From Cryobacterium breve (GTDB lineage: Bacteria; Actinomycetota; Actinomycetes; Actinomycetales; Microbacteriaceae): a DNA stretch of 64,000 nt. Location: contig NZ_CP075584.1 in the NCBI RefSeq assembly GCF_027594785.1, positions 682,001 to 746,000 of the forward strand, written 5' to 3'. The notes under the pieces are model-generated. The model ran no database searches and was not told where the DNA came from. It was given only the letters and a program-made list of their open reading frames with translations. The translations under genes and the position numbers were made by a program. This document shows, one piece after another, positions 1,883-61,755 of the stretch; the first letter of the stretch is position 1; each line of letters begins with the position of its first letter.

Positions 1883-3056
1883 ATGCCCCCGCACGCCTCC
1901 CGTTCCGACGTCCTCCGCCTCCGCCTGGTGAGCCACGGACTCTCCGCGCCCGCCCCAGAAAGCACTGCGCTCACCGGCCCACTCGCCGTGGTCGAGCGGA
2001 TGCTCGCGGTCCAGGCCCAGGATCTCCCCGCGGCCACCTGGGCGCTCGGGGTGCGCTCCCCCGGCACCGTCGCCGCAGACGTCACAGCCGCCCTTGACGC
2101 CGGGTCGATCGTGCGCTCGTATCCGATGCGTGGCACCCTGCACCTGGTCCCCGCGACCGACGTCCGGTGGATGCTGGACCTCACCGCCACGAGGGTGGTC
2201 GCCTCGATGGCCACGCGGCAGCGACAGCTCGGGCTCGACGACACCATCATCGCCGCCGCCGCGGAGGTGGCCGCCGGCCTCCTCTCCGGCGGCAGACACC
2301 TCAGCCGTAACCCGTTCCTCGCCGGGCTGCGGTCGGCCGGAATCGACCCGGACGGACAGCGCGGCTATCACCTGATCGTGTCCCTCGCGCTCGCGGGGCT
2401 CGTGGTGTGGGGTCCCCACCAGGACGGCCAGCCTGCCCTTGCCCTGCTCGACGAGTGGGCACCCGAGCAGCGCCGCCTGGACCGTGCAGAGGGCCTCGCG
2501 GAATTCCTGGTGCGCTACCTCGACGGCCACGGGCCCGCCTCCCTGCGTGACTTCGCCTCGTGGTCGCAGGCTCCCGGTCACGGACGCCCGCGTTGCCCTC
2601 GCGGAGGCCGGCGACCGGCTGGAGGAACTCGAGGTGGACGGCGAGACCCTGCTCCTGCCCGCGGCGCTGGAACGCGGCACCCTCGGCTCACGGCCGGCAC
2701 AGCGCACCCCCGTGCTGGCGCTGCCCGGCTTCGACGAGTACCTGCTCGGCTACCGCGACAGGTCGTACGTCGTGGACGACGCCGATTTCCCGCGGGTCGT
2801 CCCCGGTCTCAACGGGATCTTCCTGCCGCTCATCGTCGCGGACGGGCGCGTGATCGGCACCTGGCGGAAGGAAACGACGCACACGAGGGCGAACGGAACG
2901 ACCGTCGCGGTCGAAGCAGCGCCGTTCGGGACCCTCACCGCACGGCGATCGACCGGCTTCGGCCGGGCGATCCGGGACTATTCACGCTTCACCGGGATTC
3001 CCGCGACGATAAGACCCTCCCTTGCTCCGTCCGTCGAAGCGGGCACGATATCCTGA
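1883..3056 (+). CDS. Winged-helix DNA-binding domain protein (frameshift near 2570)
   Basis: The first part (VQAQDLPAATWALGVRS, then MRGTLHLVPATDVRWML) and the last part (LALPGFDEYLLGYRDRSYVV, VVPGLNGIFLPLIVADGRVI) are typical of the actinobacterial winged-helix DNA-binding domain family of about 370-390 aa, related to the E. coli YcaQ group. Their function in actinobacteria is mostly unassigned; YcaQ relatives are DNA interstrand crosslink glycosylases. The two parts are in different frames. Removing one base from CAGGCTC at 2567-2573 restores WSQLPVTDARVALAEAG and gives one 390-aa product. The sequence CAGCTC/GAGCTG is the recurrent error site of this window, so the gene is probably intact in the organism. 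The start appears leaderless. Confidence 0.75.
3049..3054 (+). promoter_or_regulatory. -10 element for a leaderless transcript
   Basis: TATCCT ends 7 nt before the GTG at 3061, with no ribosome-binding site between. It overlaps the end of the preceding gene. Confidence 0.45.
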
Positions 3057-3060
3057 ACGG

Positions 3061-4100
3061 GTGAGAATATCGGCCCGCGTTCGATCCTCGAGCCGGATTC
3101 CGTTGCTCCAGGCTGTGAAGACCTCACTCGCCGTCATGCTCGGCTGGGTGCTGTCCCAGGGCCTCCTGCACACGGGAGCCTCCCGATCTTCGCGGCGATC
3201 GCAGCGCTTCTCGTTGTGCAGCCGAACATCAACCAGACCCTCGGCCGGGCGATCGAGCGTAGCCTCGGCGTCGTCGGCGGGGTGCTCGTCGCCTACGGAG
3301 TCGGCGTCGCGTTCGGCAAGTCGAGTTGGATCGTGCTGCTCGCGATCGTGTTCTGCATCCTGCTCGCCTGGGCGCTCCGCCTGGCCCCGAGCTCGGCGAG
3401 CCAGATTCCGATCAGCGCCATGATGGTGCTCTCCATTGGGGCGACGACACCGGAATACGCCAGGGACCGCATCATCGAGACGATGATCGGCGCTGCGGCA
3501 GCACTTTTCGTCAACGCGCTCATCGTGCCGCCGGTGTTGCTCGCGCCCGCGCACGACACGGTCATCCGCCTCGCCCGGGAGGTCGCAGACACCCTGGACC
3601 GCATCGTCGACGCGCTGCGCTTCCCGCAGACGCAGACCCAGATCGAGGAAATGATGATCAAGGCACGGCTGCTGCGGCCGATGCTGAACAAGGCGGAGAA
3701 GGCGCTCAAGTCCGCGGAGGAGAGCCTGACTCTGAATCCGCGCCATACGACGAATCGACGCCTGCTCGACGTCGATGAGGAGTTCTACAACCGGCTGACC
3801 TCTCTCGTGACCCGTACGATCGGCATGACCAGGTCGCTCAGGGACCACTACGACCATTCCCTGCACCTCGAGCCGACCGTGCTGGCGATCACCGTCGAGC
3901 TCAGCCGATCAGCGCACGACCTCCGGCTCCTCGCCGCAGAGGCCGACTATCCCGACCGGGATCATCTGCCCGTCGCGGTGGAACCGCCGGCCCTCACCGA
4001 ACCGCTCCTGATCATGACGCCGCATCCGCAGCACTGGATCCTGATCGGTTCGCTCATGGAGGACCTACGCAGGGTTCGCGAAGAGATCAAGGGCGAGTAG
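3061..4100 (+). CDS. FUSC-family membrane protein (frameshift near 3182)
   Basis: An integral membrane protein of the FUSC (fusaric acid resistance-like/aromatic acid exporter) type. Hydrophobic segments include SLAVMLGWVLSQGLL, PIFAAIAALLVVQP, VVGGVLVAYGVGVAFG and IVLLAIVFCILLAWAL, followed by a cytoplasmic helical half with charged heptads (residues about 160-346). The phrase IFAAIAALLVVQPNINQTLGRA is the family hallmark. The start and the rest are in different frames: adding one C to the CCC at 3182-3184 gives GASPIFAAIAALL and a 346-aa product. This is the opposite type of error from the GAGCTG insertions. The GTG at 3061 has a -10 hexamer exactly 7 nt away. The substrate is unknown. Confidence 0.75.
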
Positions 4101-4108
4101 CGGCTCAA

Positions 4109-4140
4109 AAAAGGGGCCCCACCGAAGTGGGACCCCTTTT
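4109..4140. terminator. Bidirectional intrinsic terminator
   Basis: A 14-bp stem (one mismatch) with a CGAA loop, flanked by A-runs on the left and T-runs on the right. It separates the convergent FUSC and YceI genes and should stop transcription from both sides. Confidence 0.9.
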
Positions 4141-4155
4141 CACGAACCGGGAAGA

Positions 4156-4719: not shown

Positions 4720-4833
4720 GATGCTCCTCAAGTCTGCGTGACGGATGGATCGCCGCCCTCGGATACATGCAAGCGCATAGAGAGCGGGTTTATTCCGGAT
4801 CGGGGAGAAACTTCCGAAATACTTTCGCCGGAC

Positions 4834-8270: not shown

Positions 8271-10079
8271 GAGGACGCCTCGGCGAGGACGAGGACGGAG
8301 TGCGGCGCCAGCAGGACGGACCCGTCGTCCTCGCGGGAGAGGAGCGCAGGCCCGTCGGTCCCGAAGTCGAGCAGCACGGCGCCGGTCCCGACCGGCATGC
8401 GCCGGGCATCCGCTGCAAGGTTCACCACGATCTCCGTGGAACCACGGACGAGGCGCAGCCAGGACCCTGCTGCGTCGAAGTCGACGCCGACCCGGTCGAG
8501 GCGCGGTTCGGTGAAGGACGGCACGTCGCGGCGCAGTTCTGCGAGCCGTCGATAGAGGCCGAGCATTCGCGCGGGCCCAGGCCGCTCCGCCTCGTCCCAG
8601 TCCAGCCGGGACCTCGTGAACGTCTCCGGGTCCTGCGGGTCGGGCACGAGTGCGGGATCCCAGCCCATCCGGGCGAACTCGCTGATCCGCCCGGTCGCGG
8701 TCGCCGCTCCGAGTTCCGGTTCCGGGTGCGAGGTGAAGAACTGCCAGGGCGTGGTCGCGCCCCATTCCTCTCCCATGAACAACATCGGGGTGAAGGGCCC
8801 GAGGAGGGTCAGGGTCGCGGCGATGGCGAGCTGGCCCGCGTCGAGCGTGCCGGTCAGGCGGTCGCCGATGGCGCGGTTTCCGATCTGATCGTGATTCTGG
8901 CTGCCGACGACGAGACGCCAGGCCGGCATCCGCTGCCTGTCGATCGGACGGCCGTGGCTGCGGCCGCGGAAGCTCGAGAACGTGCCGTCGTGGAAGTAGC
9001 CGTGCGTGAGCACCTTGGCGAGGGCCCCGAGCGGGGCGAAGTCGGCGTAGTAGCCGGTCGTCTCCCCGGTCAGGGCGACGTGCACGGCATGGTGGAAGTC
9101 GTCGCTCCACTGCGCGTCGAGGCCGTAGCCGCCCGCCTCCGCCGGCGTGATCAGGCGAGGATCGTTGAGGTCGGACTCGGCGATCAGGGTCAGCGGACGA
9201 CCGGAGAATGCGCTGAGCGCGGCGACCTCCCCGGCCATTTCCTCGAGCAGGTGGGTGGCCCGGTCGTCGCGGAGGGCGTGCACGGCGTCGAGGCGCAGCC
9301 CGTCGACGTGGTACTCGTCGAGCCACATCAGGGCGTTGTCGATGATGTGTCGCCTGACCGGATCGGAGTCCGGTCCGTCGAGGTTCAGCGAGGAACCCCA
9401 GGTGTTCCCGGCCGCCTCACTGAGATACGGTCCGAACTCGGGCAGGTAGTTTCCGCTCGGTCCGAGATGGTTGTAGACGACGTCCTGGATCACTCCGATG
9501 CCGGCCTGGTGGCAGGCATCGACGAAGCGCTGGTAGGCGGCGGGCCCGCCATAGCCCTCGTGCACGGCGTACCAGAGCACGCCGTCGTAACCCCAGTTGT
9601 GGGTTCCGTTGAAGGCGTTGACCGGCAGGAGCTCGACGAAGTCGACCCCGAGGGACACCAGATGGCCGAGGCGGGCCGCCGCGGCGTCGAGGGTGCCCTC
9701 CGGGGTGAAGGTTCCGAGATGCAGGCTCGTAGATCGTGCCGCCCGCGAGCTGGCGACCGGTCCACCGCGAGTCCTGCCAGGCGTGCGCGCCAGGGTCGAA
9801 GCTGCGGGACAGGGCGTGCACGCCGTCGGGCTGGCGGCGGGAGCGCGGATCGGGGAACGGGCCGGCGCCGTCGATCACGAATCCGTAGTCGCGAGGCTCC
9901 GCCCCGGCGTCGGGCGCGCGCAGGCGCCACCAGCCGCCGTCCGCCCGGTCCATGGGCCGGATGACCGGTTCCCCGGTGGAGCCGGCGACGGTGGAGCGCA
10001 GGAACAGGTCGACCGCCTGGGCGTTCGGCGCCCAGACCTCGACGTCCCCGGCGTCGTGAGTGGGCTCTGCTGAGCTCAT
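8267..10079 (-). CDS. treZ: Malto-oligosyltrehalose trehalohydrolase (frameshift near 9727)
   Basis: TreZ (GH13) releases trehalose from maltooligosyl-trehalose made by TreY. The N-terminal CBM48-like part ([35 protein letters not shown]) and the catalytic part ([34 protein letters not shown] with the nucleophile Asp; [11 protein letters not shown] with the acid Glu; [10 protein letters not shown]) are in different frames. Deleting one base in CAGGCTC (9724-9730) restores [16 protein letters not shown] and gives 603 aa, a normal TreZ length. The ATG at 10079 overlaps the treY stop as ATGA. The frameshift is one of the window's GAGCTG-site insertions. Confidence 0.9.
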
Positions 10080-12470
10080 CGGTCGGCCTTCCCCGTGACG
10101 ATCGGACCCGTGACGATCGGTGATTCGATTCCCTGGCCCTGATCCGGGACGAGGAGGGCCACCGGGTAGCGGCGCAGCAGGTCACTCACGAGGAGGGTGC
10201 CGCCGGAGAACCGCTGCCCGGTGAGGACATCGGTCACCGGGATGGCGGCGAGAACGATCGTGGTGTCCCGCCAGCCTCCCGCCGCTGCGAGGCCGAGCGG
10301 AAGCCGGGTGGCGACCGTGACGGCGTCGCCGCGGTCGAAGGCGAGCAGGTGTTCTGCGGCGGCGCCGAATGCCGGAACGGGCGCATGGCGGAAGAACCGT
10401 TCGGGGGCGTCCCGGCGCTGGCGCAGGGCCCGACTCGTGACGAGCAACTTCGCGGCGCCGCTCTCGTCGACGGGCGGCAGCCATCCGTCGTCGATGCGGG
10501 CGAGGATGCCGCGACGCACGGCATAGTCGACGGGGCGCCGGTTGTCCGGGTCGACCAGGGACGTCTCCCAGAGTTCGCTGCCCTGGTAGACGTCCGGTGC
10601 GCCCGGCATGGTGAGCTGCACGAGTTTGGCCGAGAGGGAGTTGCTCCAGCCGGCCTTCCGCACCCGTTCGACGAAGTCCGTGAGGGCGGCCGTGACAGCG
10701 GGGTCGTCGAAGGCCGCGTCGATGAGGTGGTCGAGCTTCGCCTCGAAGACGGCGTCGGGCGCGTTCCAGGTCGTCGACGTTCCGGACTCGCGGGCGGCCT
10801 TGAGCGCGTATGCGCCGAGGCGTTCGCGGCTGGCGGGCCAGGACCCCACGACCGCCTGCCAGAGCAGGTTCTCGAGCGGGCCGTCGCCGAGTGGCACGTT
10901 CGTGCGCAGTGTGTCCAGGGTCGCCTCCCACTCCGCGGGGATCTCGGCGATGACGGTGATGCGGGCGCGGACGTCCTCTCCCCGTTTCGTGTCGTGGGTG
11001 GAGAGCGTCGTCATCGAGTCCGGATAGGTCGCCGCCCTGGCCTGCTGGCGCGCGTGGAAGGTCTCAGCATCGATCGAGAACTCCGAAGGGTCTGCTCCGA
11101 CCTCGTTGAGCGAGGTGAGCCGGCTGTAACGGTAGTACGCGGTGTCCTCGACGCCCTTGGCCATCACCATGCCGGAGGTCTGCTGGAAGCGGACGGCGGC
11201 GGAATTCCGCGGGTCGGCCAGTACGGTCAGGAGCCTGCCGATCGTTCCGGCGAGGTCGGGCCTGCGGGCGGATGCGCGCCGTGCGGCCTTGTCGAGCAGG
11301 CTCGAAGCCGAGCGGAAGGTACGAGCGATACACCGGCATGGCGGTCAGCAGTTCTGCAAGGCCGTCGATGGCCTCCGGCCCGGGAATCTCGGGGACGAGG
11401 CGGGCGATCCGGCGCACCTCCGAGTTCAAGATGCCGTCGGCGATGCCGCGCTTCCGCTCGGAGACGAGCTCGGCCCAGGTCTGCGGGCGTCCGCCCTGTC
11501 CCGGAGCCGGGGAGTCGTCCTGCAAGCGTTTCTCGAGCGCGTCGAGGGCCGGCCGGCCCGCCGGGTCGACGAAGATCCGGTCGACGTCTGCGAGGGCGTC
11601 GTAGCCCGTCGTGCCCCTCGTCGACCAGCTCGTGGGAAGGGTCTCGTCGCCCTCGAGGATCTTCTCGACGAGCACGTACGTTCCGTCGGTCGCCAGGCGC
11701 AGCCGGTCGAGGTAGCCGCCCGGGTCGGCCAGGCCGTCGGGGTGGTCGACGCGGATGCCCTGGACGAGGTCGTCCCTGACCCAGCGAACGATCTCGCGGT
11801 GCGACTCCTCGAAGACCCAGGGGACCTCGACGCGGATGCCGGCGAGGCTGTTCACGGCGAAGAAGCGACGGTAGTTGAGCTCGTGGTCTGCGCGGCGCCA
11901 GTTGACCAGCGTGTAGTGCTGCCGCGAGTGCACCGTACGGCCATCGGCCCCGTCGTCTGCCGTGCCGGGGAGGATCGGGAACCGGTGGTCGTAGTAGTGC
12001 AGCTCGTCGCCGACGATCTCGAGCCGGTCGAGTTCGCTGCCCTCTCCCGGCGTGTCGTCGCCGAGGGCCGGCAGCAGGATCTTCCCGTCGCCCGCTGCCC
12101 AGTCGACGTCGAACGCGTCCGCGTAGCGGGAGTCCTGACCGAAGCGGAGCAGGTCCCACCACCACGCGTTGCGGTGCGGGTCGTCGACGCCCATGTGGTT
12201 GGGCACGATGTCGACGAGGATGCCGCGCCCGGCATCCGCCACCGCTGCCGCGAGCCGGCGGAGCCCTTCGGGCCCGCCCCTGGCGGGGTCGATGGCCGCG
12301 TGGTCGACGACGTCGTAGCCGTGGTCTGAGCCGTCGGCGGAGGTGAGGAGCGGCGAGAGGTAGATCCAGTCCGCGCCGAGGCCGACGACGTAGTCGAGGA
12401 CCCCTTCCGCGGCGGCAAGGTCGAAAGCGGCCGTGATCTGCAGGCGGTAGGTCGAATGCGGGATCCTCAT
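10076..12470 (-). CDS. treY: Malto-oligosyltrehalose synthase (frameshift near 11300)
   Basis: TreY (GH13) rearranges the reducing-end alpha-1,4 bond of maltodextrin into the alpha,alpha-1,1 bond of trehalose. Visible signatures are IPHSTYRLQITAAFD, GLGADWIYLSPLL, VDIVPNHMGV, QGIRVDHPDGLADP (nucleophile Asp), YVLVEKILEGDE and, late, THDTKRGEDVRARI. The two halves are in different frames: removing a base from CAGGCTC (11297-11303) restores YLPLGFELLDKAARRASARR and gives 797 aa, the usual length. The ATG at 12470 overlaps the glgX stop (ATGA), and its own stop overlaps treZ, so glgX-treY-treZ is one coupled operon. Confidence 0.91.
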
Positions 12471-16550: not shown

Positions 16551-17972
16551 TCAGGGGCGGCCGTTCAGTGCTGGACGTCCGACTCCGGTTGGGCGCGCAG
16601 GCTCGGTGGCATCGTCTCCCCCGGCGACGCCGAGCAGTCCGGCGGGCTCTCCGGCTTCACCGGACTCCGGCGTGGCAAGCAGGTAGGACACGAACCAGTC
16701 GCTCGCGAGGTTCGCCGCCGTGGCCAGGGCCCCCGGTTCCTCGAAGAGATGGGTCGCCCCCTCCACGACCGCAAGCCGGTTGCGGCACCGCATCCGGGCC
16801 CTGGCCCGGCGATTGAGGTCGAGCACTCCCGGGTCGGCGCCGCCCACGATCAGGAGCGTCGGGGCCGTGACCTCCGGGAGCCGGTCTCCGGCGAGGTCAG
16901 GGCGCCCGCCGCGACTCACGATGGCCGCGAGGCGTTCGTCGGCGTCGGCCGCGGCCCAGAGGGCCGCACCGGCGCCGGTGCTCGCCCCGAAATAGCCGAT
17001 CCGGCATGACCGGGTGTCCGGCCGGCCGAGGAGCCACTCGGTTGCCGCCGCCAGCCTCCCGGCGAGGAGCCCGACGTCGAAGACGTTGGCCCGGTCCGAT
17101 TCCTCCCCGGGCGTGAGCAGGTCCAGGAGCAGGGTGCCGAGGCCGGCGCGATGCAGCACGTCGGCGACGAACTGGTTCCGGGGGCTGTGACGGCTGCTTC
17201 CGCTTCCGTGGGCGAACACGACGACAGCCGGGGCATTCTCCGGGAGGTACAGGTGCCCCTCGAGGACGACAGTGCCGACCGGGATCTCCACGTCCCGGTC
17301 CAGGCCCGACCCCCGGCGTGGCGACCGGTGCGGATCCGCCGGGCCGCGGCGTCCAGCAGGGCGGTGACTTCGTCGTCGGTCGTGGCCGCGAAGTCGATGT
17401 AGTGGTTGCCGACGGCCACGAGCCGCCGCGGGACATTGACGCAGACGAGTTCGTCGAAGCCGCTGAGGTCGAACAGCGATTCCGCCGAGGCCACGGGGAC
17501 GGCGAGGATCACCCGCTCGGCGCCGTGCAGCCGGGCGACGTCTCCGGCCGCCCGGGCCGTCGCTCCGGTCGCGATGCCGTCGTCGACGATGACAACGGTG
17601 CGACCGCGCACGTCGATCCGTTCCCTGCCCTTGCGCAGGCTCGGCAACGCGGGAGTCGAGAATGCCCCGTTCGCGGCGTTCGACGGTCGCGAGTTCATCG
17701 TCGCTGATGCTGGCCATCGTGAGGATGTCCGGGTTGAGTTCCCGGACGCCGCCCTCGCCGATCGCCCCCATCGCGAGCTCCGGCTGGAACGGGACCCCGA
17801 GCTTGCGGACCACGATCACGTCGAGCGGCGCGCCCAGCACCCGCGCGACCTCTGCGGCGACGGGCACCCCGCCCCTCGGCAGTCCGAGAACGATCGTGTC
17901 GGTACCCCGAAGATACTCGAGCCGCTCGGCCAGCTGCCGGCCGGCATCCACCCGATCACTGAACAGGACCAT
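16551..17972 (-). CDS. Phosphoribosyltransferase-alpha/beta hydrolase fusion (two frameshifts)
   Basis: A two-domain protein of 473 aa. Residues 1-215 form a type I phosphoribosyltransferase fold (VLGLPRGGVPVAAEVARVLG, RGTVVIVDDG-type PRPP loop seen as VVIVDDGIATGATARAA). Residues 230-440 form a dienelactone-hydrolase-like domain with HGSGSSRHS, nucleophile elbow GASTGAG, IVGGADPGVLD and a late catalytic His in EGATHLFEEPG. Two errors split it: a GAGCTG-site insertion at 17636-17642 (restoring SRVAELRKGRERIDV) and a missing base in a five-base run at 17310-17314 (restoring HAGGSGLDRDVEIPVG). They cancel in length. The ATG at 17972 follows GAGGAGG. Such fusions are known in actinobacteria; substrates are unproven. 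Confidence 0.8.
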   Translation of the reverse strand: MVLFSDRVDAGRQLAERLEYLRGTDTIVLGLPRGGVPVAAEVARVLGAPLDVIVVRKLGVPFQPELAMGAIGEGGVRELNPDILTMASISDDELATVERRERGILDSRVAEPAQGQGTDRRARSHRCHRRRRHRDRSDGPGGRRRRPAARRRAGDPRRPRGLGGIAVRPQRLRRTRLRQCPAAARGRRQPLHRLRGHDRRRSHRPAGRRGPADPHRSPRRGSGLDRDVEIPVGTVVLEGHLYLPENAPAVVVFAHGSGSSRHSPRNQFVADVLHRAGLGTLLLDLLTPGEESDRANVFDVGLLAGRLAAATEWLLGRPDTRSCRIGYFGASTGAGAALWAAADADERLAAIVSRGGRPDLAGDRLPEVTAPTLLIVGGADPGVLDLNRRARARMRCRNRLAVVEGATHLFEEPGALATAANLASDWFVSYLLATPESGEAGEPAGLLGVAGGDDATEPARPTGVGRPALNGRP

Positions 17973-18148: not shown

Positions 18149-18677
18149 TCAGACCGCGACGAGTGCGCGCAAACCCGGGTGCAGGTCACGCAGGGCGCGC
18201 TCGACGCGAGCGTGCAGGGTGAACCCGACGGCGGGGCATCCGCTGCAGGAACCGGTGAGACGCACCGTGACGACATCGTCATGCGCCGAGACGAGCTCGA
18301 CGACGCCGCCGTGGGAGCGGATGAAGTCGCCGACCCGCCCGGTGAGCACGGTCAGGGTGGCGGCGGCGAGGTCGGCATCACGCGTGCCGGGCGTGGCGGG
18401 GAGGACGGGAACCCACTCCGCGGGATTCTCGAGGGCGTTGTGCAAGGCGCTCCTCACGAAAGCTCCCTGGGACGCCCAGCTGCAGGCTCGCGGAGAGGCA
18501 GGTCGTGACGGCCCCTGCCTCGACCGTCAGTCCGGTGAGCACACCGGTGTCGACCAGGCGACCGAGCTCCCCCGGGGCCGACCGGACCTCGCCGGTGAAT
18601 GCGAGCGTGCCGGGCGGCATCACCCAGCGGAGCGCCTCGGGGCGGGAATGAACGGCTTCCGGGTGCAGCGGGATCAT
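18149..18677 (-). CDS. NifU-like Fe-S scaffold domain protein in the feo operon (frameshift near 18486)
   Basis: The C-terminal part (residues about 95-175) is a NifU_C/Nfu-type domain with the cluster-binding CxxC in LTGSCSGCPAVGFTLHARVE. The N-terminal part (LHPEAVHSRPEALRWVMPPG, SAPGELGRLVDTGVLTGL) resembles the Nfu N-terminal domain. The parts are in different frames; removing one base of CAGGCTC at 18483-18489 gives CLSASCSWASQGAFVRSALH and a 175-aa product. Its start codon follows the feoB stop directly, so it is co-transcribed with feoA-feoB and occupies the place of feoC in enterobacteria. It may hand imported iron to Fe-S assembly or regulate FeoB; that is inference. Confidence 0.75.
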
Positions 18678-26070: not shown

Positions 26071-27633
26071 TCGGAGTCTTCCTCGCTGCCTTCGGAGCCG
26101 GCCGGTGCGCTCTCGCCGTTGTACTCGACCTCGCCGGACGTCCACATTCCGGCGTCGCGTTCGCGGATGAGCTCGGCGCGGGCGGCCGCCTTGGCGTCCA
26201 TCCGGCCGAAGTATTCTTCGCGGCGTTCGCTGCTGGTGCGGCGCTTCGAGTCGTCGAGGCGGGTGTCCGTGCCCCGGGGGGCTGTGATGAGTTCCGCCGT
26301 CGAGGTGAGCGTGGGCTCCCAGTCGAAGACGACACCGTTTCCGGCGCCGATGATGACGGTCGAGCCGGCGACGGCTCCGGCCTTGAACAGTTCGTTCTCG
26401 ATGCCCAGCTTGGCCAGGCGGTCCGCGAGGAAGCCGACGGCCTCGTCGTTGGTGAAGTCGGTCTGCTGCACCCAGCGCTCGGGCTTGGTGCCGATGATGC
26501 GGTAGATGTTGCCGAATGAGCCGCCCTCGACCTTGACGATGAAACCGCTGTCGTCGACGGCCTTCGGGCGGATGATGATGCGCGGCTTGGCGGCGAGGGC
26601 TGCGGCGGACTCGACGCGGCCGGCTTCGACGAGTTCGGCGAGGGCATAGTTCAGCTGGCGGAGGCCCTCGTGGCTGACGGTCGAGATCTCGAAAACGCGG
26701 TAGCCGCGGCCTTCGAGGTCCGCCTTGACGAAGTCTGCGAGTTCGCGGGCTTCCGGAACGTCGATCTTGTTGAGCGCGACGAGCTGGGGACGGTCGAGGA
26801 GAGGTTTCTGGCCTTCCGGAACCGGGTAGGCGCCGAGTTCTCCGAGGATCACGTCGAGGTCGCTGATCGGGTCGCGGTCGGGGTCGAGGGTCGCGCAGTC
26901 GAGGATGTGCAGCAGAGCGGTGCAGCGTTCGACGTGGCGCAGGAATTCGAGGCCGAGGCCCTTGCCCTCGCTCGCGCCCTCGATGAGGCCGGGAACGTCG
27001 GCGACGGTGTAGCGCACCTCGCCGGCGTCGACGACGCCGAGGTTCGGGAACAGGGTCGTGAAGGGGTAGTCGGCGATCTTGGGCCGGGCGGCGGACATGG
27101 CCGCGATCAGGCTGGACTTGCCTGCGGAGGGATAGCCGACGAAGGCGACATCGGCAACGGTCTTGAGTTCGAGCTGGACGTCGCCTTCCCAGCCGTAGGT
27201 GCCGAGGAGCGCGAAGCCGGGGGCCTTGCGCTTCGAGGAGGCGAGTGCGGCGTTGCCGAGACCGCCCTGGCCGCCGGGGGCGACGACGATCCGGAAGCCC
27301 GGTTCGGTCATGTCGGCGAGCTCGTTGCCGTCGACGTCCTTGACGACGGTGCCGAGGGGCACGGAGAGTTCCATGATTTCGCTGCTGAAGCCGGCACGGT
27401 GGTCGCCCATGCCGGGGCCGCCGTTGACGGAGCCTGCGGTGCGGGGACCGGTGGAAGCCGAGGAGCGTGGTCACCTGGGGATCGGCGACGAGGACGATGT
27501 CGCCGCCGTTTCCGCCGTTTCCGCCATCGGGGCCTGCGAGAGGCTTGAACTTCTCCCGCTTGACGGACACACAGCCGTTGCCGCCGTTGCCCGCGCGCAG
27601 GTGCAGCGTGACCTGGTCAACGAATGTGGCCAT
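26067..27633 (-). CDS. obgE: Obg GTPase (frameshift near 27433)
   Basis: Obg is a ribosome-associated GTPase involved in 50S maturation and stress control. The Obg fold is seen in [20 protein letters not shown] and [18 protein letters not shown], the G domain in [36 protein letters not shown] and [14 protein letters not shown], followed by the OCT domain ([20 protein letters not shown]) and an acidic tail. One extra base in GAGCCTG at 27430-27436 splits it; correction gives [19 protein letters not shown] and 521 aa. The ATG at 27633 has AAAGGGG upstream. It is coupled to proB. Confidence 0.94.
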
Positions 27634-28933: not shown

Positions 28934-31646
28934 CTAGTTCTGCGTCTCCCGTGCCGGAAGCACGATGGGCTGCGCGTTCGACGTCGAGCCGCCTGCCGTC
29001 GTGACCCGGCGGCTGCGCGAGCGGCCCTGACCGGGCTGCTTGGGCTCGGGGAGCGACTCGAGCACCGAGTCGAGCAGCTGGTCGGTGACCTGCTTGCTCA
29101 CGGTGCGGCGCGTGCGGGACGACTTCCGCACCGGGATGTCGAGGATCTCAACGGAACCGGTGTTCGCCTCGATCGGGTCGGGGTTGAAGCCCTGGGCGAC
29201 GGCCTCCGCGACGGCGTGCGCGATGTCCGCCGTCTCGACGGGGGCGACGGGCGCTGGGGCGGCCTCGGCCGTGGCCTCGTGTGCCTCGGGCTCTGCGGAG
29301 GCGGGGGGTCGACACGGGGGCATCCGGCACGTGGATGATCGGGATGGACCCGGTCAGGGCGCGTGGGATGGTCCTCGCCGCGATCAGGGCGAGGGCGTGC
29401 TTGGCATCCTCGGTGATCCCGTGGGTGCCCGACGTGGCCTTCGCCTGCTCGGTCGACGGCGCCTGGGAACCGTTGTTGCCGGAGCCGCCGCGGTGGCCGT
29501 TGTTGCCACCGTTGCCGTTGCTCCCGTTGTTGTCGTTGCCGTTGCCGGAGTTGCCCGCCTTGCTGCGCGGGCGTCGCTCCTGGGGCGGCTGGGCCGTCTG
29601 GCGGTGCTTGGTGACGGGGTCGTGGTGGATGACGACTCCGCGGCCCGCACAGGCCTCGCAGTTCTCGCTGAAGGACTCGAGAAGCCCGAGTCCGAGCTTC
29701 TTGCGGGTCATCTGCACCAGGCCGAGCGAGGTGACCTCGGCGACCTGGTGCTTGGTGCGGTCGCGGCTCAGGCATTCGAGCAGGCGGCGCAGCACGAGGT
29801 CACGGTTGGTCTCGAGGACCATGTCGATGAAGTCGACGACGATGATGCCGCCGATGTCGCGCAGCCGGAGCCTGGCGCACGATCTCCTCTGCGGCCTCGA
29901 GGTTGTTCTTCGTGACGGTTTCCTCGAGGTTTCCGCCTGACCCGACGAACTTGCCTGTGTTGACGTCGACGACGGTCATGGCCTCGGTGCGGTCGATCAC
30001 GAGGGAACCGCCGGAGGGCAGCCAGACCTTGCGGTCGAGCGCCTTCTCGATCTGCTCGGAGATGCGGTACTCGTCGAAGGCGTCGTTTTCGCCCTCGTAA
30101 CGCTCGACCCGGTCGACGAGGTCAGGGGCGACCTGGCCGAGGTACGTCTGGATCGTCTCGCGGGCTTCGTCCCCGGAGATGACCATCTTCTGGAAGTCCT
30201 CGTTGAAGACGTCGCGCACGATCTTGATCAGCAGGTCGGGCTCACCGTGCAGGAGTGCGGGGGCCTGGACGGTGTCGACGAGCTTCGAGATGGACGCCCA
30301 CTGCTCGGTGAGCCGGTTGACGTCGAGCGTCAGCTGCTCGTCGGTGGCGCCTTCCGCGGCGGTACGCACGATCACGCCGGTGTTGTCCGGAAGGACCTCC
30401 TTGAGGATCTTCTTCAGGCGGGCGCGCTCGGTGTCCGGAAGCTTGCGGCTGATGCCGTTCATCGACCCGTTCGGCACGTAGACGAGGTAGCGACCCGGAA
30501 GCGAGACCTGGCTGGTGAGCCGGGCGCCCTTGTGGCCGATCGGGTCCTTCGTGACCTGCACGAGCACCTTGTCGCCCGGCTTGAGCGCGAGCTCGATGCG
30601 ACGGGCCTGGTTGCTGTTGGCGGCGTGTTCCGCGGCAGCTTCCCAGTCGACCTCACCGGAGTACAGCACGGCGTTACGTCCGCGTCCGATGTCGACGAAG
30701 GCGGCTTCCATGCTCGGGAGCACGTTCTGCACGCGGCCGAGATACACATTCCCGATCAGGGATGCATCCTGGTTCTTGGCGACATAGTGCTCGACGAGCA
30801 CGCCGTCCTCGAGGACGCCGATCTGGATCTTGTTGTGCTTGGCGCGGACGACCATGACGCGGTCGACCGATTCGCGGCGGGCGAGGAACTCGGCCTCCGT
30901 GATGACGGGACGGCGGCGACCGGCGTCGCGGCCGTCGCGGCGGCGCTGCTTCTTGGCCTCGAGGCGGGTCGAGCCCTTGATGCGCTGCGGCTCCGTGATG
31001 AGTTCGGGTTCGCGCGGAACGCGGACCCGGACGACGGTGTTGGCGGGGTCGTCCGCACCGGAACGGTTCTCGTCTCCCGGCCGGCGGCGGGCGCGGCGGC
31101 GGACGGTCGACGTCTCGTCCGGGTACTCATCGCGGTCGGAGCGGCCGTCGGGACGGTTGTCCGAACGGTTGCGGTCGTGACGGTTGTCCGCGCCGTTGTC
31201 CTGGCGGTTGGAGTCCGATCGATTGCCGTCCTGGCGATTGCCCGAACGGTTGTCCTGACGGTCTCCGTCTGAGCGGTTGCCGTCCTGACGGTCATCGAAG
31301 GCACGCGAGTCGTCGCGTCGCCCCCGGAACGGGCCGGAAGCGGCACGATGTTCGGCGCCTGGAAGAGAAGAGAGGTCGATGGCCTGCGAACCGGCTGTGC
31401 GGGTTCGACGGGCGGAGTCGGCTGGTCCACGATGGTGTCCTGTTCGGCTGGGGTCGTCTCGGTGTTCGCCCAGGGTGCGGGCTCCCCCTCGAGGAATGGT
31501 GCTGTCGGCGGCTCCACGGTCTCGGTCGCGGCGCTGGGCGCCGGGGCCGGTGCTTCCGCGGGCGCGATCGCCGCGGCGGCTACCCGTCGACGGCGGGATC
31601 CGAACAGACCTTTGCGTTTTTTGGTGTTTTCGTTGTCTTCCACCAT
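28934..31646 (-). CDS. rne: Ribonuclease E/G (three frameshifts)
   Basis: The endoribonuclease of mRNA decay and rRNA processing. An N-terminal basic/disordered extension of about 240 residues contains many RQDGNRSD-like repeats. Then come the S1 domain (NVYLGRVQNVLPSMEAAFVD), the 5'-sensor and catalytic DNase I-like part (VIDRTEAMTVVDVNTGKFVG, LRDIGGIIVVDFIDM) and the Zn-link CEACAGRGV. The C-terminus is disordered. Errors: a missing base in the run 31321-31325, a GAGCTG-site insertion at 29868-29874 (restoring VRQLRLRDIGG) and an extra base in the run 29303-29308. Corrected length is 903 aa. The ATG at 31646 has AAGGAG. About 230 nt of leader separate it from a GATAAT -10 (31872-31877), possibly for autoregulation as in E. 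coli. Confidence 0.9.
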
Positions 31647-31925: not shown

Positions 31926-32526
31926 GTGCAACACACCGAGCAATCCAAGCGCCCCGTCGGGCTCGCCGTCTTCATGATCATCGGAGGTGCGATCGCCCTC
32001 GCCGCCGCCTTCGCACTGACCCTGGACAAGATCGCGATCCTCGAGGACCCGCAGGCGCAGCTCTCCTGCAACTTCAGCGTGCTCGTCGGCTGCAGTACCA
32101 ACCTCGGCTCCTGGCAGGGTGCGCTGTTCGGTTTCCCGAATCCGCTGATCGGGCTCATCGCCTGGACGGTCGTCATCACCATCGGATCCGCGATCCTCGC
32201 GGGCGCCCGGTTCGCCCGCTGGTTCTGGATCGGACTGAACGCCGGCGTGACGCTCGCGCTCGTCTTCGTGATCTGGCTGATGGGGCAGAGCTTCTTCGTG
32301 CTCGACGTGCTGTGCCCGTGGTGCATGGTGACCTGGGTCGTCACGATCCCGATGTTCCTGGCCGTGACCCTCTACAACCTCCGGACGGGCACCCTCCCGG
32401 TTCCGACGGGGGTTCGGCGCTTCGCCGCCGGCGCATCGTCGTGGATCGTCGTGATCACAATCGGGTGCTACCTCGTCGCCGCCACGGTCGCCCAGGCTCA
32501 AGATGGACTTCCTGCACCGTCTCTAG
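31926..32526 (+). CDS. Vitamin K epoxide reductase family protein (frameshift near 32496)
   Basis: A VKOR membrane protein of 199 aa after correction. It has the quinone-site CxxC in LDVLCPWCMVTWVV, a loop cysteine pair (SCNFSVLVGC) and NLGSWQGALFGFPNPLIGLI, with four to five membrane spans. Bacterial VKOR reoxidises a DsbA-like oxidase with menaquinone to drive disulfide formation outside the membrane. No DsbA partner is in the window. One extra base in CAGGCTC (32493-32499) shifts only the last few codons; removal gives VAQLKMDFLHRL and a stop at 32524. The GTG start at 31926 is at leaderless distance from a -10. Confidence 0.88.
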
Positions 32527-33453: not shown

Positions 33454-34824
33454 TCCCTCGCGGCGGCCAGGGACAGGGCCTCGCCGACGAGGGTGATCGA
33501 ACCGGTCACGATCACGCCGCGGCGCGGAGCGTCCGCGGCCCAGGTCCTCGCGGCGTCGAGGGCGTCCGCAACGTCGTCGAAGCGACTGACGGCATCCTCG
33601 TTCGTTCCGGCGGCAACGATGTCGGCGAGGTCGTCGACGGGGATCGCCCGGTCGGACTGCGACTGGGTGACATGGAACCGGGTCACGACGGGGGCGAGCG
33701 CCGCGACGATGCCCGCGGCGTCCTTGTCGGCGAGGATCCCGATCACGGCGACGACCTCATCGAAGTGGAAGTAGGTGCCGACCGCCGCGGCCAGGGCGCC
33801 CGCCCCGTGCGGGTTGTGCGCGGCATCCACGAGCACGGTCGGTTCGATGCCGATGAGCTGCAGCCGGCCGGGTGAGGTGGCGGTCGCGAGCCCCTCCGTG
33901 AGGATGTCGTGGTCGAGCGGACGGGTCCCGGCACCGAGGAAGGACTCGACCGCCGCGATCGCGACGGCCGCGTTGTGGGCCTGGTGGGTGCCGTACATCG
34001 GCAGGAACAGGCTCCGAGTATGTCGCGGCCAGACCGCGCACCGTGATGAGCTGCCCGCCGACGCCGACCTGGCTGTCGAGCAGGGCGAATTCCTCGCCCT
34101 CGCTCGCGAGGGTCGATTCGGTCAGTTCCACGGCGCGTTCCAGTTCGGCCTGCACGGTTTCCACCTGCCGGGCGCTGACGACGGATGCCGCCGGCTTGAT
34201 GATCCCTGCCTTGGTGCGGGCGATCTCCGCGACGGTGTTGCCGAGCCGTTTGGTGTGGTCGAGGGCGACCGGTGTGACGACGGCGACGAGGCCGTCTGCG
34301 ACGTTCGTGGAGTCCCACTCTCCGCCCATGCCGACCTCGATCACGGCGACGTCGACGGGGGCGTCGGCGAAACAGGCGAAGGCGAGCACGGTGAGTGCCT
34401 CGAAGAAGGTGAGCGGTTCCTCGTTCGTCTCCGCGAGCTCGGCGTCCACCATCGCGAGGTACGGCTGGATGTCCTCCCAGTTCGCGGCGAGGTCGCGGTC
34501 GCTGATCGGTTCGCCGTCGATCACGATCCGTTCGTTGAGGCGGACGAGGTGCGGGCTCGTCATCATGCCCGTGCGCAGCCCGTACGCGCGCAGGATGCTC
34601 TCGGTGATCCGGCTCGTGCTGGTCTTGCCGTTCGTGCCGGTGATGTGGATCACCGGGTAGGTGGTCTGCGGGTCGCCGAGCAGTTCGACGACGCGCCGGG
34701 TCGGGCCGAGGCGCGGTCGCGGGGCGGCCTCGCCGACCCTGTCGAGCAGGGCTGTGAAGACGGCCTCGCCCGCGTCGCGGTACTCGTCGTCTTCCGGCAG
34801 GTTCTGGTCCATCGAATCAGACAT
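33438..34824 (-). CDS. folC: Folylpolyglutamate/dihydrofolate synthase (frameshift near 34011)
   Basis: FolC adds glutamate to folates. It has the Mur-ligase P-loop [15 protein letters not shown], the [17 protein letters not shown] loop, [32 protein letters not shown] and [19 protein letters not shown]. One extra base in CAGGCTC at 34008-34014 breaks the frame; correction restores [20 protein letters not shown] and a 461-aa product. The ATG at 34824 overlaps the ileS end by 8 nt, so the two are coupled. Probably co-controlled by the ileS T-box. Confidence 0.93.
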
Positions 34825-37800
34825 TCACGATTCCGTTCTCTCGGGCGACGGCGACGAGCACCGGCCCGCGGTTGGCGTAGTGGCCGGCCTCGAAGCGCAC
34901 GTAGTGCTCGACGGGGGCGCCGGCGAGGTGTTCGAGCCATTCGGAGGGCACGGCGCCCGCGAGGATGACCGGGTCGACCTCGGTCGGGGCGTGTGCGGCG
35001 AAGCGCACGGTGAGCGTTTCCGCGGCCACGTCGACGCCCGGCGCGAGGCGCAGGGTGTCGAGGTCGGCCTGGTCGAAGAAGACGAGGTCGAGGCGGATCC
35101 GGTCGGCCACGAAGAATCCGGCTGACTTGCGGGTGTCCTGAACGGCGCGGATCAGGTCGCGGGCGAAGCCCTCGGCCTCGAGCTCCGGCGTGGTGACGGT
35201 GTCGAGCAGCACGAAGCCGCCGCCCTGGAGCAGGGCGAGGGCGGGTCCCGCCGCGGCGCCTTCCGCGGATGCCGCGTCGGTGCTGCCCGCGCCGGTGTCC
35301 GCCTGCAACACGAGTTCGTACTCGCCGGCCTCGAGCGCAATGCCGCCCGCGGTCACGATTCCGTCGGTTTCGCTCCAGTCGCCGCTGCGCGCGGCCTTGA
35401 TCGCGGCCTGCACCTGCTTGCCGAGCCGGGGCCCGGCCGCGCGGGCGTTGACGGTGAGGCGGGAGGTGATGCCGTAGTTCGCCGCGCTGTCTTCGGCGAG
35501 CTCGACGAGGTTCACGCTCTTCACGTTGAACTCGTCGCGCAGGATGGCTTCGAAGGGGGCGAGCGCCGCGGTTCCGGTCGTGACGACGGTGAGCTGCGCG
35601 AGCGGCAGCCGCACGCGCAGGCCGGCCTGCTTCCGCAGCGACAGCACGGTGGAGCCTGATCGTGCGGATCTGGTCCATCGCCGTGACGAGGCCGTGGTCT
35701 GACGGGAAGAGGTCGGCGTCGGGCCAGTCCGTCAGGTGCACGCTGCGGCCGGCGGTCAGCCCCTGCCAGATTCTTTCGGTGACGAGCGGCAGCAGCGGGG
35801 CGGCGACCCGGCACACGGTCTCGAGCACGGTGTAGAGAGTGTCGAAGGCTTCTGTGGCGGTGCCGCCTGCGACGGCGCCGGTCCAGAACCGGTCCCGGGA
35901 GCGACGCACGTACCAGTTGGTCAGCACGTCGGCGAAGTCGCGGAGCCGGGCGGTGGCCTGGGTGGAGTCGAGGGCCTCGAGGTCGCTCGTGACGTCGACG
36001 ATGACGTCGCGGGTCTTCGCGAGCAGGTACCGGTCGAGGACGTCGGTCGAGTCGGTGCGCCAGACGGCGTCGTAGCCGTTCTCCCCCGAGGCGTTGGCGT
36101 AGAGCGAGAAGAAGTACCAGGTGCTCCAGAGCGGCAGCATGACCTGGCGGGTGGCCTCCCGGATGCCCTCCTCCGTGACGATGAGGTTGCCGCCGCGCAG
36201 CACGGAGGAGCTCATCAGGAACCAGCGCATCGCGTCGCTTCCGTCGCGGTCGAAGACCTCGAAGACGTCGGGGTAGTTGCGCAGCGACTTCGACATCTTC
36301 TGGCCGTCGTTGCCGAGCACGATGCCGTGGCTCACGACGTTGGTGAACGCCGGCCGGTCGAAGAGCGCGGTCGAGAGCACGTGCAGGAGGTAGAACCAGC
36401 CGCGGGTCTGGCCGATGTACTCGACGATGAAGTCCGCGGGGTTGTGGGTGTCGAACCAGTCCCGGTTCTCGAACGGGTAGTGCACGGCGGCGAAGGGCAT
36501 CGAACCGGAGTCGAACCAGACGTCGAGCACGTCCGTGATCCGGCGCATGGTGGACTTCCCGGTGGGGTCGTCGGGGTTCGGCCGGGTGAGCTCGTCGATG
36601 TACGGGCGGTGCAGGTCGGTCGGGCGCACCCCGAAGTCGGCCTCGAACTCGTCGAGCGAGCCGTAGACATCCGTGCGGGGGTAGTTCGGGTCGTCGCTCT
36701 TCCAGACCGGGATCGGCGATCCCCAGTACCGGTTGCGGCTGATCGACCAGTCGCGGGCGTTGCCGATCCACTTGCCGAACTGGCCGTCCTTGACGTTCTC
36801 CGGCACCCAGGTGACGTCCTGGTTGAGTTCGACCATGCGGTCGCGGAACTCCGTGACGCGCACGAACCAGCTCGACACCGCCTTGTAGATCAGCGGGTTG
36901 CGGCAGCGCCAGCAGTGCGGGTAGGAGTGCTCGTAGCTGGCCTGGCGCAGCAGCCGGCCCTCGGCCTTGAGCATCTGGGTGAGCGGCTTGTTCGCGTCTG
37001 ACCAGAGCAGGCCGGCGACCTCGGGCACGTCGGCGAGGAACTTGCCGCCCTCGTCGAGGGAGATGATCACGGGGATCCCGGCGGCCTCGCAGGCCTTCTG
37101 GTCTTCCTCGCCGTATGCGGGCGCCTGGTGCACGATGCCGGTGCCGTCTGCGGTCGTGACGTAGTCGGCGAGCAGGATCGTCCAGGCCTTCTGGGTGTTC
37201 CAGACGGAGGCGTCGGCGTAGTAGTCGAAGAGGCGGTCGTATGCGACACCCTCGAGCTCGCGTCCCGTGACCGTGCGGTCCACGGCAGCGGAGGCCTCCG
37301 CGGGCGTGTCGTAGCCGAGGTCCTTCGCGTAGTTGCCGACGAGGTCGATCGCGATCAGGTACTCGGCGCCGAGGACGGACACGTCCACGCGAGCGGCGTC
37401 ACTGCCGGAGGCGGCCTCCTCGCGGAGCACGGTCGCGTCCGGGGTGCCGTTCGGTCCGGCCGGGACGACGGCGTAGACGATGTCCGGACCGACGGCGAGG
37501 GCGAGGTTGGTCGGCAGGGTCCAGGGGGTCGTCGTCCAGGCGAGGGCGCGCACCGCGGTCAGGCCGAGGGCTTCCGCCTTCGTGCCGACGAGCGGGAACG
37601 TCACGGTGACGGTCTGGTCCTGGCGCATCTTGTAGACGTCGGCGTCCATGCCGAGCTCGTGGTTGGAGAGAGGAGTCTGGTCGCGCCAGCAGTACGGCAG
37701 CACCCGGTAGCCCTCGTAGGCGAGGCCCTTGTCGTGCAGGGTCTTGAAGGCCCAGATCACCGATTCCATGAAGGTGATGTCGAGGGTCTTGTAGTCGTTC

Positions 37801-42211: not shown

Positions 42212-43919
42212 CCGGGGCACAGGTGACCGGGCCGGGCTCGCTGGGAACAGTCTCCGCGGTCAGTCGAGCGGATGCCGCGGCCCCGACGGGCGGACCGGCC
42301 CTGCTGGTCCGCGGGCTCAGCGTCGGCTTCGGCAGCGACGCCGGTCGGAATCCCCTCGTCGATGACGTCTCCTTCGAGGTCGCGCCCGGGGAATGCCTCG
42401 CCATCGTCGGCGAATCCGGCTCGGGGAAGAGCCTCACGGCGCGCAGCCTGCTCGGCCTGGCCGGGCCCGGCTCGTGGCTGCGCGCCGAGGAGCCTGAGCC
42501 TCGGCGGGGCATCCGTGCTCGGTCTCGGCGAGGCCGGCTGGCGGCGCAGGCGGGGTCGCGACGTCGGACTCGTGCTGCAGGACGCGCTCGTGTCGCTCGA
42601 CCCGCTGCGGCCGATCGGACACGAGATCGCAGACAGCCTGCGGCTGCACACGAACCTCTCGGCGGCCGCGCGGGCGCGCCGGGTCCTCGAGCTCCTGGCC
42701 GAGGTTGGGCTTCCCGACGGCGAGCTCAGGGTCGGTCAGCGTTCCGGCCAGCTCTCCGGCGGCCAGCGGCAGCGCGCGCTGATCGCCTCCGCGATCGCCC
42801 TGCGCCCGCCGCTGCTCATCGCGGACGAGCCGACGACTGCCCTCGACGTGACCGTGCAGGCGCGGATCCTCGACCTGTTCGAGGAGCCTGCTGCACGCGG
42901 GGACGGCCCTCGTGCTGATCAGCCACGATCTGGCCGTCGTGAGCCGGATCGCCGACCGGGTCGCGGTGATGAGCGGCGGCCGGATCGTCGAGACCGGCGC
43001 GACCCGTGCGCTCCTCGCCGACCCGCAGCATCCCGAGACGAGGAAGATGATCGCCGCGGTCCCGGCCGGGCGCCCCCGCGGCACCCGGCTGTCGGCGCAG
43101 GACCGCCCGCACCGGCCGGCAGCTGTGGTCGCTCCTGCAGCCGTTTCCACGCCCGTCCCTGCGGGCCTCAGCCCCTTCGTGCTCGAGGCTTCCGGGCTCG
43201 TCAAGAGTTTCCGGATGCCCGACCGGAGCCGGCTGCTCGCCGTCAACGACGTCTCGTTCACGCTCGACCGCGGCACGACGCTCGGCATCGTCGGTGAGTC
43301 CGGTTCGGGCAAGACCACGCTCGCCCGGCTGTTGCTCGCGCTCGAGTCCCCGGACGCAGGCGACGTGAGGATGCTCGGCGAACCTTGGAGCGGAGTCCCC
43401 GAGCGCGCCAGACGACCCCGACGTGCGGCAGTCGGCGCCGTCTACCAGGATGCGCTCGCCTCCTTCGACCCGCGGCTCACCGTCGGCGCCGTCCTCCGCG
43501 ATGCCGCCGGCTCCGCTGACCAGTCGCTCGAGCTCCTCGACCGAGTCGGGCTCAGCGCCGCCGTGCTCGGCCGCCGCCCGCTCGAACTCTCCGGAGGGCA
43601 ACGGCAACGGGTCGGCATCGCCCGTGCCCTCGCGAACCGCCCGCAGATCCTGATCTGCGATGAACCGGTGTCCGCGCTCGACATGACCGTGCAGGCCCAG
43701 GTGCTCGACCTCCTCGACGAACTCCAGCGCGACCTCGGCCTGAGTCTCGTCTTCATCTCGCACGACCTCGGCGTCGTGCAGCACGTCAGCGACCGGATCG
43801 TCGTCATCGAGAACGGAGCGGTCGTCGAGTCCGGCCCGACGGAACAGGTCTTCGCCGCGCCGGCGCATCCGTACACCCGGCGCCTGCTCGACGCCGTGCC
43901 GCGCCTGCCCGCCCCCTGA
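42208..43919 (+). CDS. Fused dual ABC transporter ATPase, DppD-DppF type (two frameshifts)
   Basis: One 569-aa polypeptide carries both ATPase domains. Domain 1: Walker [15 protein letters not shown], signature [16 protein letters not shown], Walker [14 protein letters not shown]. Domain 2: Walker [15 protein letters not shown], signature [16 protein letters not shown], Walker [14 protein letters not shown]. Two GAGCCTG sites (42490-42496 and 42884-42890) each carry one extra base; removing them restores [14 protein letters not shown] and [19 protein letters not shown]. Both lie in domain 1. Fused DppDF ATPases are common in actinobacteria. It completes the importer operon. Confidence 0.92.
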
Positions 43920-44036: not shown

Positions 44037-44163
44037 GCAGGCAACGGTGGTAGGGCGGACGCCCCCGAATCGCCGGTGAACGGGGCATCGGGTAGGTTGG
44101 ATTAGGCCAATATTCAGGCACCTCACCGCAGACACGGTGCCGCAGACAGTGAATCGGAGAAAC

Positions 44164-59506: not shown

Positions 59507-59522
59507 GTCGTGTACGCCCGTC

Positions 59523-60122
59523 CTAGATCTTGTTCACTGAGTCGTCGGTGCCGCCGCCGCCGATTACTTCCGACGCGGAGCCGCGCAGGTGGTCGACGAA
59601 GCCGTAGGTCACGGCCTCCTGGGCGGTGAACCAGTTGTCGCGGTCGTTGTCGATCAGGATCTGCTCGACCGACTTGCCGGTCTGCTCGGCCGTGAGTTCC
59701 GCCATCCGCTTCTTCATGTCGAGGATGACCTTGGCCTGCGTCTGGATGTCCGCCGCCGTGCCGCCGAAGCCGCCGGACGGCTGGTGCAGGAGGACCCGGG
59801 CGTTCGGCGTGATGTACCGCTTGCCCTTGGTGCCGGAGGACAACAGGAACTGGCCCATGGAGGCGGCCAGCCCGATGCCGACGGTGACGATGTCGTTCGG
59901 TACGAACTTCATCGTGTCGTAGATGGCCATGCCGGCCGTGATCGAGCCACCGGGAGAGTTGATGTACAGGAAGATGTCGCGCTCAGAGTCCTCTGCTGCG
60001 AGCAGCAGGATCTTGGCGCAGATCTCGTTGGCGTTCTCGTCCCGGACCTCCGAACCGAGCCAGATGATGCGGTCTTTCAGCAGTCGGTCAAAAACGCCGG
60101 GTGTTGGGGTCATATCGGCCAT
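59523..60122 (-). CDS. clpP1: ATP-dependent Clp protease proteolytic subunit 1
   Basis: A 199-aa Clp[41 protein letters not shown], catalytic Ser in [20 protein letters not shown], His in [20 protein letters not shown] and Asp in [20 protein letters not shown]. It leads the clpP1-clpP2 operon behind a ClgR-type box. The C-terminal tail ([12 protein letters not shown]) is flexible. Confidence 0.96.
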
Positions 60123-60155
60123 GTCGCGCTCCGTTTCACTTGTCGCTTGAGATTG

Positions 60156-60161
60156 AATCTA
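60156..60161 (-). promoter_or_regulatory. -10 element of the clpP1P2 operon
   Basis: TAGATT on the reverse strand, 34 nt before the clpP1 ATG. The -35 position (60179-60184) reads CCGTTC, a poor match, as expected for an activator-dependent promoter. Confidence 0.5.
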
Positions 60162-60188
60162 TAGGAGCCTGAGAGCCAGAACGGCCGT

Positions 60189-60202
60189 GTTCGCCCTCGG
60201 CA
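60189..60202 (-). promoter_or_regulatory. Candidate ClgR activator site upstream of clpP1P2
   Basis: TGCCGAGGGCGAAC on the reverse strand matches 10 of 11 core positions of the ClgR motif reported for Corynebacterium (CGCYNANRGCG followed by two A/T and G/C). It lies about 27 bp upstream of the -10, partly covering the expected activator zone. ClgR is the known activator of clp genes in actinobacteria. Confidence 0.6.
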
Positions 60203-60234
60203 GATTGCGCGGCTCCCCGAGCCCGGGAACGCCG

Positions 60235-60266
60235 AAGGGCCGGGCGTCCTGAGACGCCCGGCCCTT
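60235..60266 (-). terminator. Intrinsic terminator of tig
   Basis: A perfect 14-bp stem with a 4-nt loop (CTGA on the + strand), 48 nt past the tig stop. It separates tig from the clpP1P2 promoter. Confidence 0.85.
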
Positions 60267-60314
60267 GTTCGCTGGAGTCAGCGGGTGCTGGCAGCGGATG
60301 CCGCGCAGCGGGTG

Positions 60315-61755
60315 TTACTTCTTGGCTGCGGCCTTCTTCTTCGGCTTCGCGGGGACCTCTGCGGCCTCGTCCTCGTCGTCAGAGTCGGCGGCTGCCGCTT
60401 CCGCGGCGGGGTCGACCGTGACGGAGTCGATGTCGACGTCGACGGAGGTGGTGCCGTCCGTGGCCTCGGGCTCGTCGCCCGCGATCGCGGTGAACTCGGC
60501 GAGGTCGACGACGGCGCCGTTGCCATCAACGACCTCCGCCTTGCCGAGGGCGATCGCGAGGGCCTTGTTGCGGGCGACCTCTGCGACCATCGACGGGATC
60601 TGGCCGTTTCCGCTGAGCGCCTGGACGAACTCGCTCGGGTCCATGCCGTACTGGGCTGCGCCCTGGATCAGGTACTGGGTGAGCTCGTCCTGGCTGACCT
60701 GGACCTTCTCGGCCTCGGCGATCGTGTCGAGCAGGATCTGCTGGCGGAAGGTCTTCTCGCTCGACTCGGTGACCTCGGCGCGGTGCACGTCGTCTTCGAG
60801 GCGGTTCTCGCCTTCGAGGTGACGACGCACCTCGTCCTCGATGATCGCGGTCGGGATCGGGACCTCGACGGAGGCGAGGAGGCTGCTCGATGAGGAGTTC
60901 GCGGGCCTGGGTGCCCTGGCCGAAGATCTTGGAGCGCAGCGCCTGCGCCTTGAGGTCTTCGGTGAGCTCTGCGACGGTGTCGAATTCGCTGGCGATCTGC
61001 GCGAAGTCGTCGTCGACGGGGGAAGCTCGCGCTCCTTGACGGCGAGGACCGTCACGGTGATCTCCGCGGTTTCGCCTTCGTGGTCGCCGCCCATGAGGGT
61101 GGAGTTGAAGGTTGTGGTCTCGGTCGCGCTGAGCGAGTCGAGTGCCTCGTCGATGCCGTCGATCAAGTCGCCGGTGCCGACCTCGTAGGAGATGCCGGTC
61201 GCGTTGTCGACCTCGACGTCGCCGATGGATGCGACGAGGTCGATCTGCACGAAGTCGCCGGTCTTGGCGGGGCGGTCGACCGTGATGAGCGTGCCGAAGC
61301 GGCTGCGCAGCTTGTCGAGCTCCTCGGTGACGTCCTCATCGGTGACCTCGGCCGTGTCGACGACGAGCTTGAGGCCCGTGTATGCGGGAAGGTCGATCTC
61401 GGGGCGGACGTCAACCTCGATCGAGAGCTTGAGGTCGCCGGAGAAGTCCTTGTCGGACGGCCATTCGACGATGTCGGCCTCGGGGCGGCCGAGCGGGCGG
61501 AGCTTGTGCTCGTCGACGGCGGCACGGTAGAAACCGTCGAGGCCTTCGTTGACGGCGTGCTCGAGGACGGCCGACTTACCGACGCGCTGGTCGATGATGG
61601 GCGGCGGAACCTTGCCCTTGCGGAAGCCGGGGATGTTGATGTCTTCGGCAATGTGACCATATGCGTGGGTGATGCTGGGCTTCAGGCTCCTCCGGGGTCA
61701 CCGAAATGGTGACCTTGGCGCGCGTGGGGCTCAGCTTTTCGACCGTGGACTTCAC
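60315..61755 (-). CDS. tig: Trigger factor (three frameshifts)
   Basis: The ribosome-bound chaperone and peptidyl-prolyl isomerase. N-terminal ribosome-binding part: [39 protein letters not shown] (with the GFRKGK signature). FKBP-like domain: [38 protein letters not shown]-terminal helical arms: [20 protein letters not shown] and a Lys/Glu-rich tail. Errors: an extra base at CAGGCTC 61683-61689 (restoring [14 protein letters not shown]), a missing base in the run at 61018-61022 and an extra base at 60879-60885 (restoring [14 protein letters not shown]). Corrected length is 479 aa. The GTG at 61755 has AGGAG 9 nt upstream. Confidence 0.93.

Follow-up and report, generated by a model that had tools for sequence, protein, structure and literature searches.

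Flank-dependent one-base insertions at AGCT in a Cryobacterium breve assembly suggest consensus errors at a modified palindrome

Consensus errors at one motif, attributed to base modification, have been described in nanopore genomes of mza-bearing Listeria, whose mza system encodes a methyltransferase (PMC10687267, in the part of that report available). Consensus errors are also described, in the available part of another report, at Dcm sites (CCAGG/CCTGG), a 5-methylcytosine motif of known methylation that was absent from the basecaller training data (PMC6591954). AGCT, the palindrome that concerns us here, is the target of M.AluI, a C5 methyltransferase with a preference for GG just upstream and CC downstream (PMC11879396, available part). 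Our subject is a 64,000-nucleotide stretch of the Cryobacterium breve assembly, hereafter the window (G000:C1:682001-746000), in which an original prediction had reported 14 frameshifts caused by one extra base inside GAGCTG, and had proposed a modified base as their cause. We consider the signature an artefact of this known kind that differs in its motif and in consisting of insertions, not mismatches. It resembles the Listeria case in that errors are centred on one short motif; the Listeria study included an amplification control. The literature consulted held nothing on point for Cryobacterium nanopore genomes, for basecalling errors due to AGCT methylation, for GAGCTG methylation, or in a search devoted to mza.

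The assembly, G000, consists of one contig (3,959,299 bases) and is listed as 83% complete. The nearest relatives of its ileS piece belong to Cryobacterium (Microbacteriaceae), with identities of at most 88% among named genomes. A congener, G005 (4.3 megabases (Mb) in 2 contigs, listed as 100% complete), served as yardstick; its IleS piece is 98% identical to that of G000. When 1.24 Mb of G000 were compared with 1.2 Mb of G005, 790 kilobases (kb) could be aligned with a mean identity of 90.9%. Words were also counted in samples of 299 genomes from the family and 396 from the order, which overlap.

All 14 sites of the original prediction contain GAGCCTG or its complement CAGGCTC (GAGGCTG at 60882), and all are one base longer than G005. 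Both strands of the window harbor 38 GAGCCTG/GAGGCTG words: 15 are one base longer than their counterparts in G005, 21 have seven bases in G005 as well, and 2 are unaligned. The 15 longer words are the 14 sites already listed, which had thus been picked correctly, plus one at 16598 that had been missed. GAGCTG is the exact G005 reading at 11 of the 14 sites. At the other three (17639, 18486 and 34011), G005 is shorter by one base and carries a substitution as well, so that the original hexamer can only be presumed there. As predicted, unaffected GAGCTG words are frequent (21 + 27 in the window).

The signature extends beyond the window. In the first 348 kb of the alignment, which were used for chance statistics, 68 of 147 isolated one-base insertions span AGCT (1.9 expected) and 53 of 147 span GAGCTG (0.9 expected). 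Over the 790 kb, G005 has 2498 AGCT sites: 1768 are intact in G000, 147 read AGCCT or AGGCT, and 583 that differ otherwise were left out of the rates. In the reverse comparison, a single AGCT site of G000 out of 2276 is lengthened in G005. Flanks matter: lengthening affects 118/608 GAGCTG, 16/386 GAGCTC and 9/203 CAGCTG sites, and 4/718 sites with any A/T flank. The common core is AGCT, a palindrome, between G/C flanks; GAGCTG, the motif originally proposed, is its most error-prone context. An AGCCT or AGGCT lies within a few bases of 186 of the 338 one-base insertions with good flanks.

The bases next to GAGCTG decide the lengthening rate. With context defined by the flanks found in G000, 123 of 124 lengthened GAGCTG sites have gained a C, and the fraction of sites lengthened is 28/35 for GGAGCTGC, 12/16 for GGAGCTGA, 41/119 for CGAGCTGC and 2/162 for CGAGCTGG. 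In the pieces of the two genomes that were analysed, GGAGCTGC occurs 19 times in G000 and 68 times in G005, and GGAGCCTGC 88 and 21 times, respectively. The upstream preference of M.AluI is like the most error-prone context; its downstream preference differs, as errors in G000 are commonest before GC and GA. The two are likened by specificity alone, not by sequence.

Among genes called in G005, GAGCTG is lengthened in G000 at 107 of 522 sites, and GGAGCTGM at 37 of 45. Since lengthening shifts about one in five GAGCTG sites of called genes, core genes included, the extra bases are almost certainly errors of the assembly consensus and not real bases. Measured against G005 proteins, the frame switches 20 times in one 100-kb piece of G000 and 25 times in another; six loci from four other genera have no switch, and the self-check of G005 is trivially clean. 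Another single-contig genome (G038, 86% complete), considered as a second error-prone one, showed 1 frame switch in the 2.6 kb covered, and its open-frame statistics on 100 kb pointed neither way. G000 has 370 copies of the word GGAGCCTGM. Five other Cryobacterium that were sampled have 56-83 each, and no further genome of the family sample has more than 147. In the order sample a 9.4-Mb genome comes next, with 260; density, judged by eye, is 93 per Mb in G000 and no higher than about 52 per Mb in the others. Hence, no genome in the samples of 299 and 396 matches the excess of G000. The context-specific sequencing error put forward in the original prediction is strongly supported by the GAGCTG shift rate in called genes, the core genes affected, the clean state of G005 and the lack of a similar genome in either sample. 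An additional argument, based on coding versus non-coding rates (107/522 versus 17/75), was withdrawn: genes were called over only 62% of the G005 piece, and most of the 75 "non-coding" GAGCTG sites lie in frames that the caller probably missed. Our confidence in an artefact was lowered slightly on account of this withdrawal.

One-base deletions in homopolymers make up a second class of long-read error, beside the AGCT errors, in the window and in G000 at large. The first 348 kb contain 51 one-base deletions, favouring G/C runs, and homopolymers hold 68 of the 125 found in 790 kb. One-base homopolymer deletions are typical of nanopore data, and those of G000 fit nanopore reads. The sequencing platform, the methylation, the identity of the marked base and the link between enzyme and motif are all inferred.

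A modified, presumably methylated, AGCT is most probably the cause of the extra bases; a modified base, as originally proposed, fits the data, and both a gene for a candidate enzyme and a precedent in the literature exist. The AGCT palindrome is probably methylated in the DNA of this Cryobacterium, with cytosine favoured as the marked base. A nanopore basecaller untrained on the mark would read an extra base at AGCT, almost always as GAGCCTG, and the miscall would win the consensus only in some flank contexts, above all in GGAGCTGC and GGAGCTGA.

The strongest candidate for the enzyme is a C5 cytosine methyltransferase encoded outside the window by one uninterrupted gene (G000:C1:1356630-1357985, minus strand). 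Its single open frame scores 211.6 bits with PF00145 (cut-off 22), and the protein shows PCQPFS, ENV, RERLYIVG and GNAVN, which we take to be C5 catalytic motifs. A PF00145 search of G005 gave no C5 methyltransferase match. The gene sits in a cluster (L180) that resembles MZA. Components of the MZA defence system include MutL-like and AIPR proteins; none was detected among the 14 open frames of L180 by Pfam search, extended to PADLOC for 8 of them, and the locus carries GmrSD_N and HNH_2 proteins instead. We therefore term the cluster "MZA-like" and do not count it as a member of MZA. Homologues of the methyltransferase are found in 13 of 398 genomes, including G000 and three partial matches; in nine family genomes they are full-length and 54-59% identical. 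We favor this enzyme, with some reservation, as the maker of the AGCT mark, its specificity being deduced solely from co-occurrence. On the full proposal we are evenly divided: AGCT would be marked genome-wide by the C5 enzyme of an actinobacterial MZA-like cluster, and the mark would lead nanopore basecallers to insert cytosine depending on the flanks.

Several observations weigh against this proposal. The Listeria errors are mismatches at GCAGC, in the part of the report available (PMC10687267), while those of G000 are insertions at AGCT. None of the nine genomes with full-length homologues shows an excess of GGAGCCTGM, although they say little because their sequencing platforms are unrecorded. 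In the 23S ribosomal RNA (rRNA) genes, four AGCT sites with G/C flanks, one of them GGAGCTGA, are intact in all three G000 copies (G000:C1:2496568-2499697, 3119876-3123005 and 3645700-3648828; L249, L251 and L247, respectively), and the alignment with G005 does contain single-base indel differences. C>T changes at AGCT are not markedly in excess between G000 and G005. Miscalls or deamination of this type had been considered; the apparent excess is near-symmetric between the genomes (325 versus 280, with 10207 versus 11727 for all other contexts together and 227 versus 171 for TGCT alone), and was judged too weak to be used. Lastly, 3 of the 7 GAGCTG sites outside any composition-biased frame are lengthened, too few for a coding/non-coding test.

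Alternatives to the C5 enzyme, and to modification itself, have unequal merits. AGCT may be marked by another enzyme, for instance as N4-methylcytosine or N6-methyladenine by the product of a PF01555 DNA methyltransferase gene (G000:C1:2199115-2199924, locus L149), or by one from an unsearched family. N4-methylcytosine at AGCT is known in a Thaumarchaeon (PMC6329791, available part). The PF01555 gene is perhaps a genus-wide methyltransferase, as all 13 Cryobacterium searched have a match, G000 included. Against another enzyme, G005 also possesses the PF01555 gene and lacks the signature, even if its platform is unrecorded. The three PF02384 genes are HsdM-like, and type I (HsdM) sites are bipartite; a search for D12-type methyltransferases found none. 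We regard a different enzyme as unlikely, yet as the most serious competitor.

A pure context bias, by which the basecaller or polisher would misread G/C-flanked AGCT even in unmodified DNA, seems rather improbable. The strong dependence on wider flanks does resemble a basecaller effect; nevertheless, no other genome of the two samples shows the excess, and some of them were presumably sequenced with nanopores, although platforms are unstated. We give hardly any credit to the idea that the insertions arose by mutation in the living cell, perhaps owing to a mutagenic mark at AGCT. Motif specificity alone would suit a mutational hot spot, but ileS, obgE, folC and tig are affected, the fraction of called-gene sites lengthened is as high as described above, and G005, at 91% identity, has one such event in the reverse comparison. 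Methylation of AGCT remains our preferred explanation.

Lengthened sites of the window were placed in genes by means of the G005 gene assignment, and the names ileS, obgE and folC given in the original prediction hold. Each lengthened site is one base longer than G005. On the minus strand, the site at 2570 (2567..2573) lies in an AlkZ-like gene and that at 11300 (11297..11303) in treY; the site at 9727 spans 9722..9728. Further along the same strand, two sites with an additional substitution relative to G005 fall in one phosphoribosyltransferase-domain gene: 16598 (16598..16604), at its end, and 17639 (17636..17642). Substitutions also accompany the minus-strand sites at 18486 (18483..18489, NifU-domain gene) and 34011 (34008..34014, folC). 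The site at 32496 (32493..32499, minus strand) belongs to a VKOR family gene. On the plus strand, lengthened sites are found in obgE (27433; 27430..27436), a ribonuclease E/G gene (29871; 29868..29874) and ileS (35655; 35652..35658), and twice in an ABC transporter ATP-binding gene (42493; 42490..42496, and 42887; 42884..42890). The trigger factor gene tig also has two, at 60882 (60879..60885, plus strand, the GAGGCTG word) and 61686 (61683..61689, minus strand). An extra lengthened site with GAGCTC context was detected at 3177 (3176..3182, no strand given), in a FUSC/ArAE-like gene.

Two further observations concern other features. ValS, at 44137-46746 (plus strand), scores highest with the "alt_ValS" exception model (1460.7 bits, cut-off 900) rather than with the standard bacterial one. 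At alignment columns 1576-1606, the 23S rRNA copies of G000 have in common some 30 bases that differ from the three G005 copies, as if a helix had been replaced. A viral-contig search with one frame of the window confirmed no relative.

Extrapolation from 147 lengthened sites in 790 kb yields about 700 false insertions of the AGCT type in the whole assembly, and gene calls and pseudogene counts of G000 are misleading for this reason. The low listed completeness may partly reflect these insertions, and many genes that appear interrupted are probably intact in the living cell. The AGCCT signature is easily screened, and points to an AGCT methylation system that can be tested. If the full proposal is true, this public assembly would be a fossil methylome, in which the error rate of each context reveals the specificity of a methyltransferase with no need for raw signal; enzymes linked to mza would then repeatedly give rise to faulty nanopore genomes.
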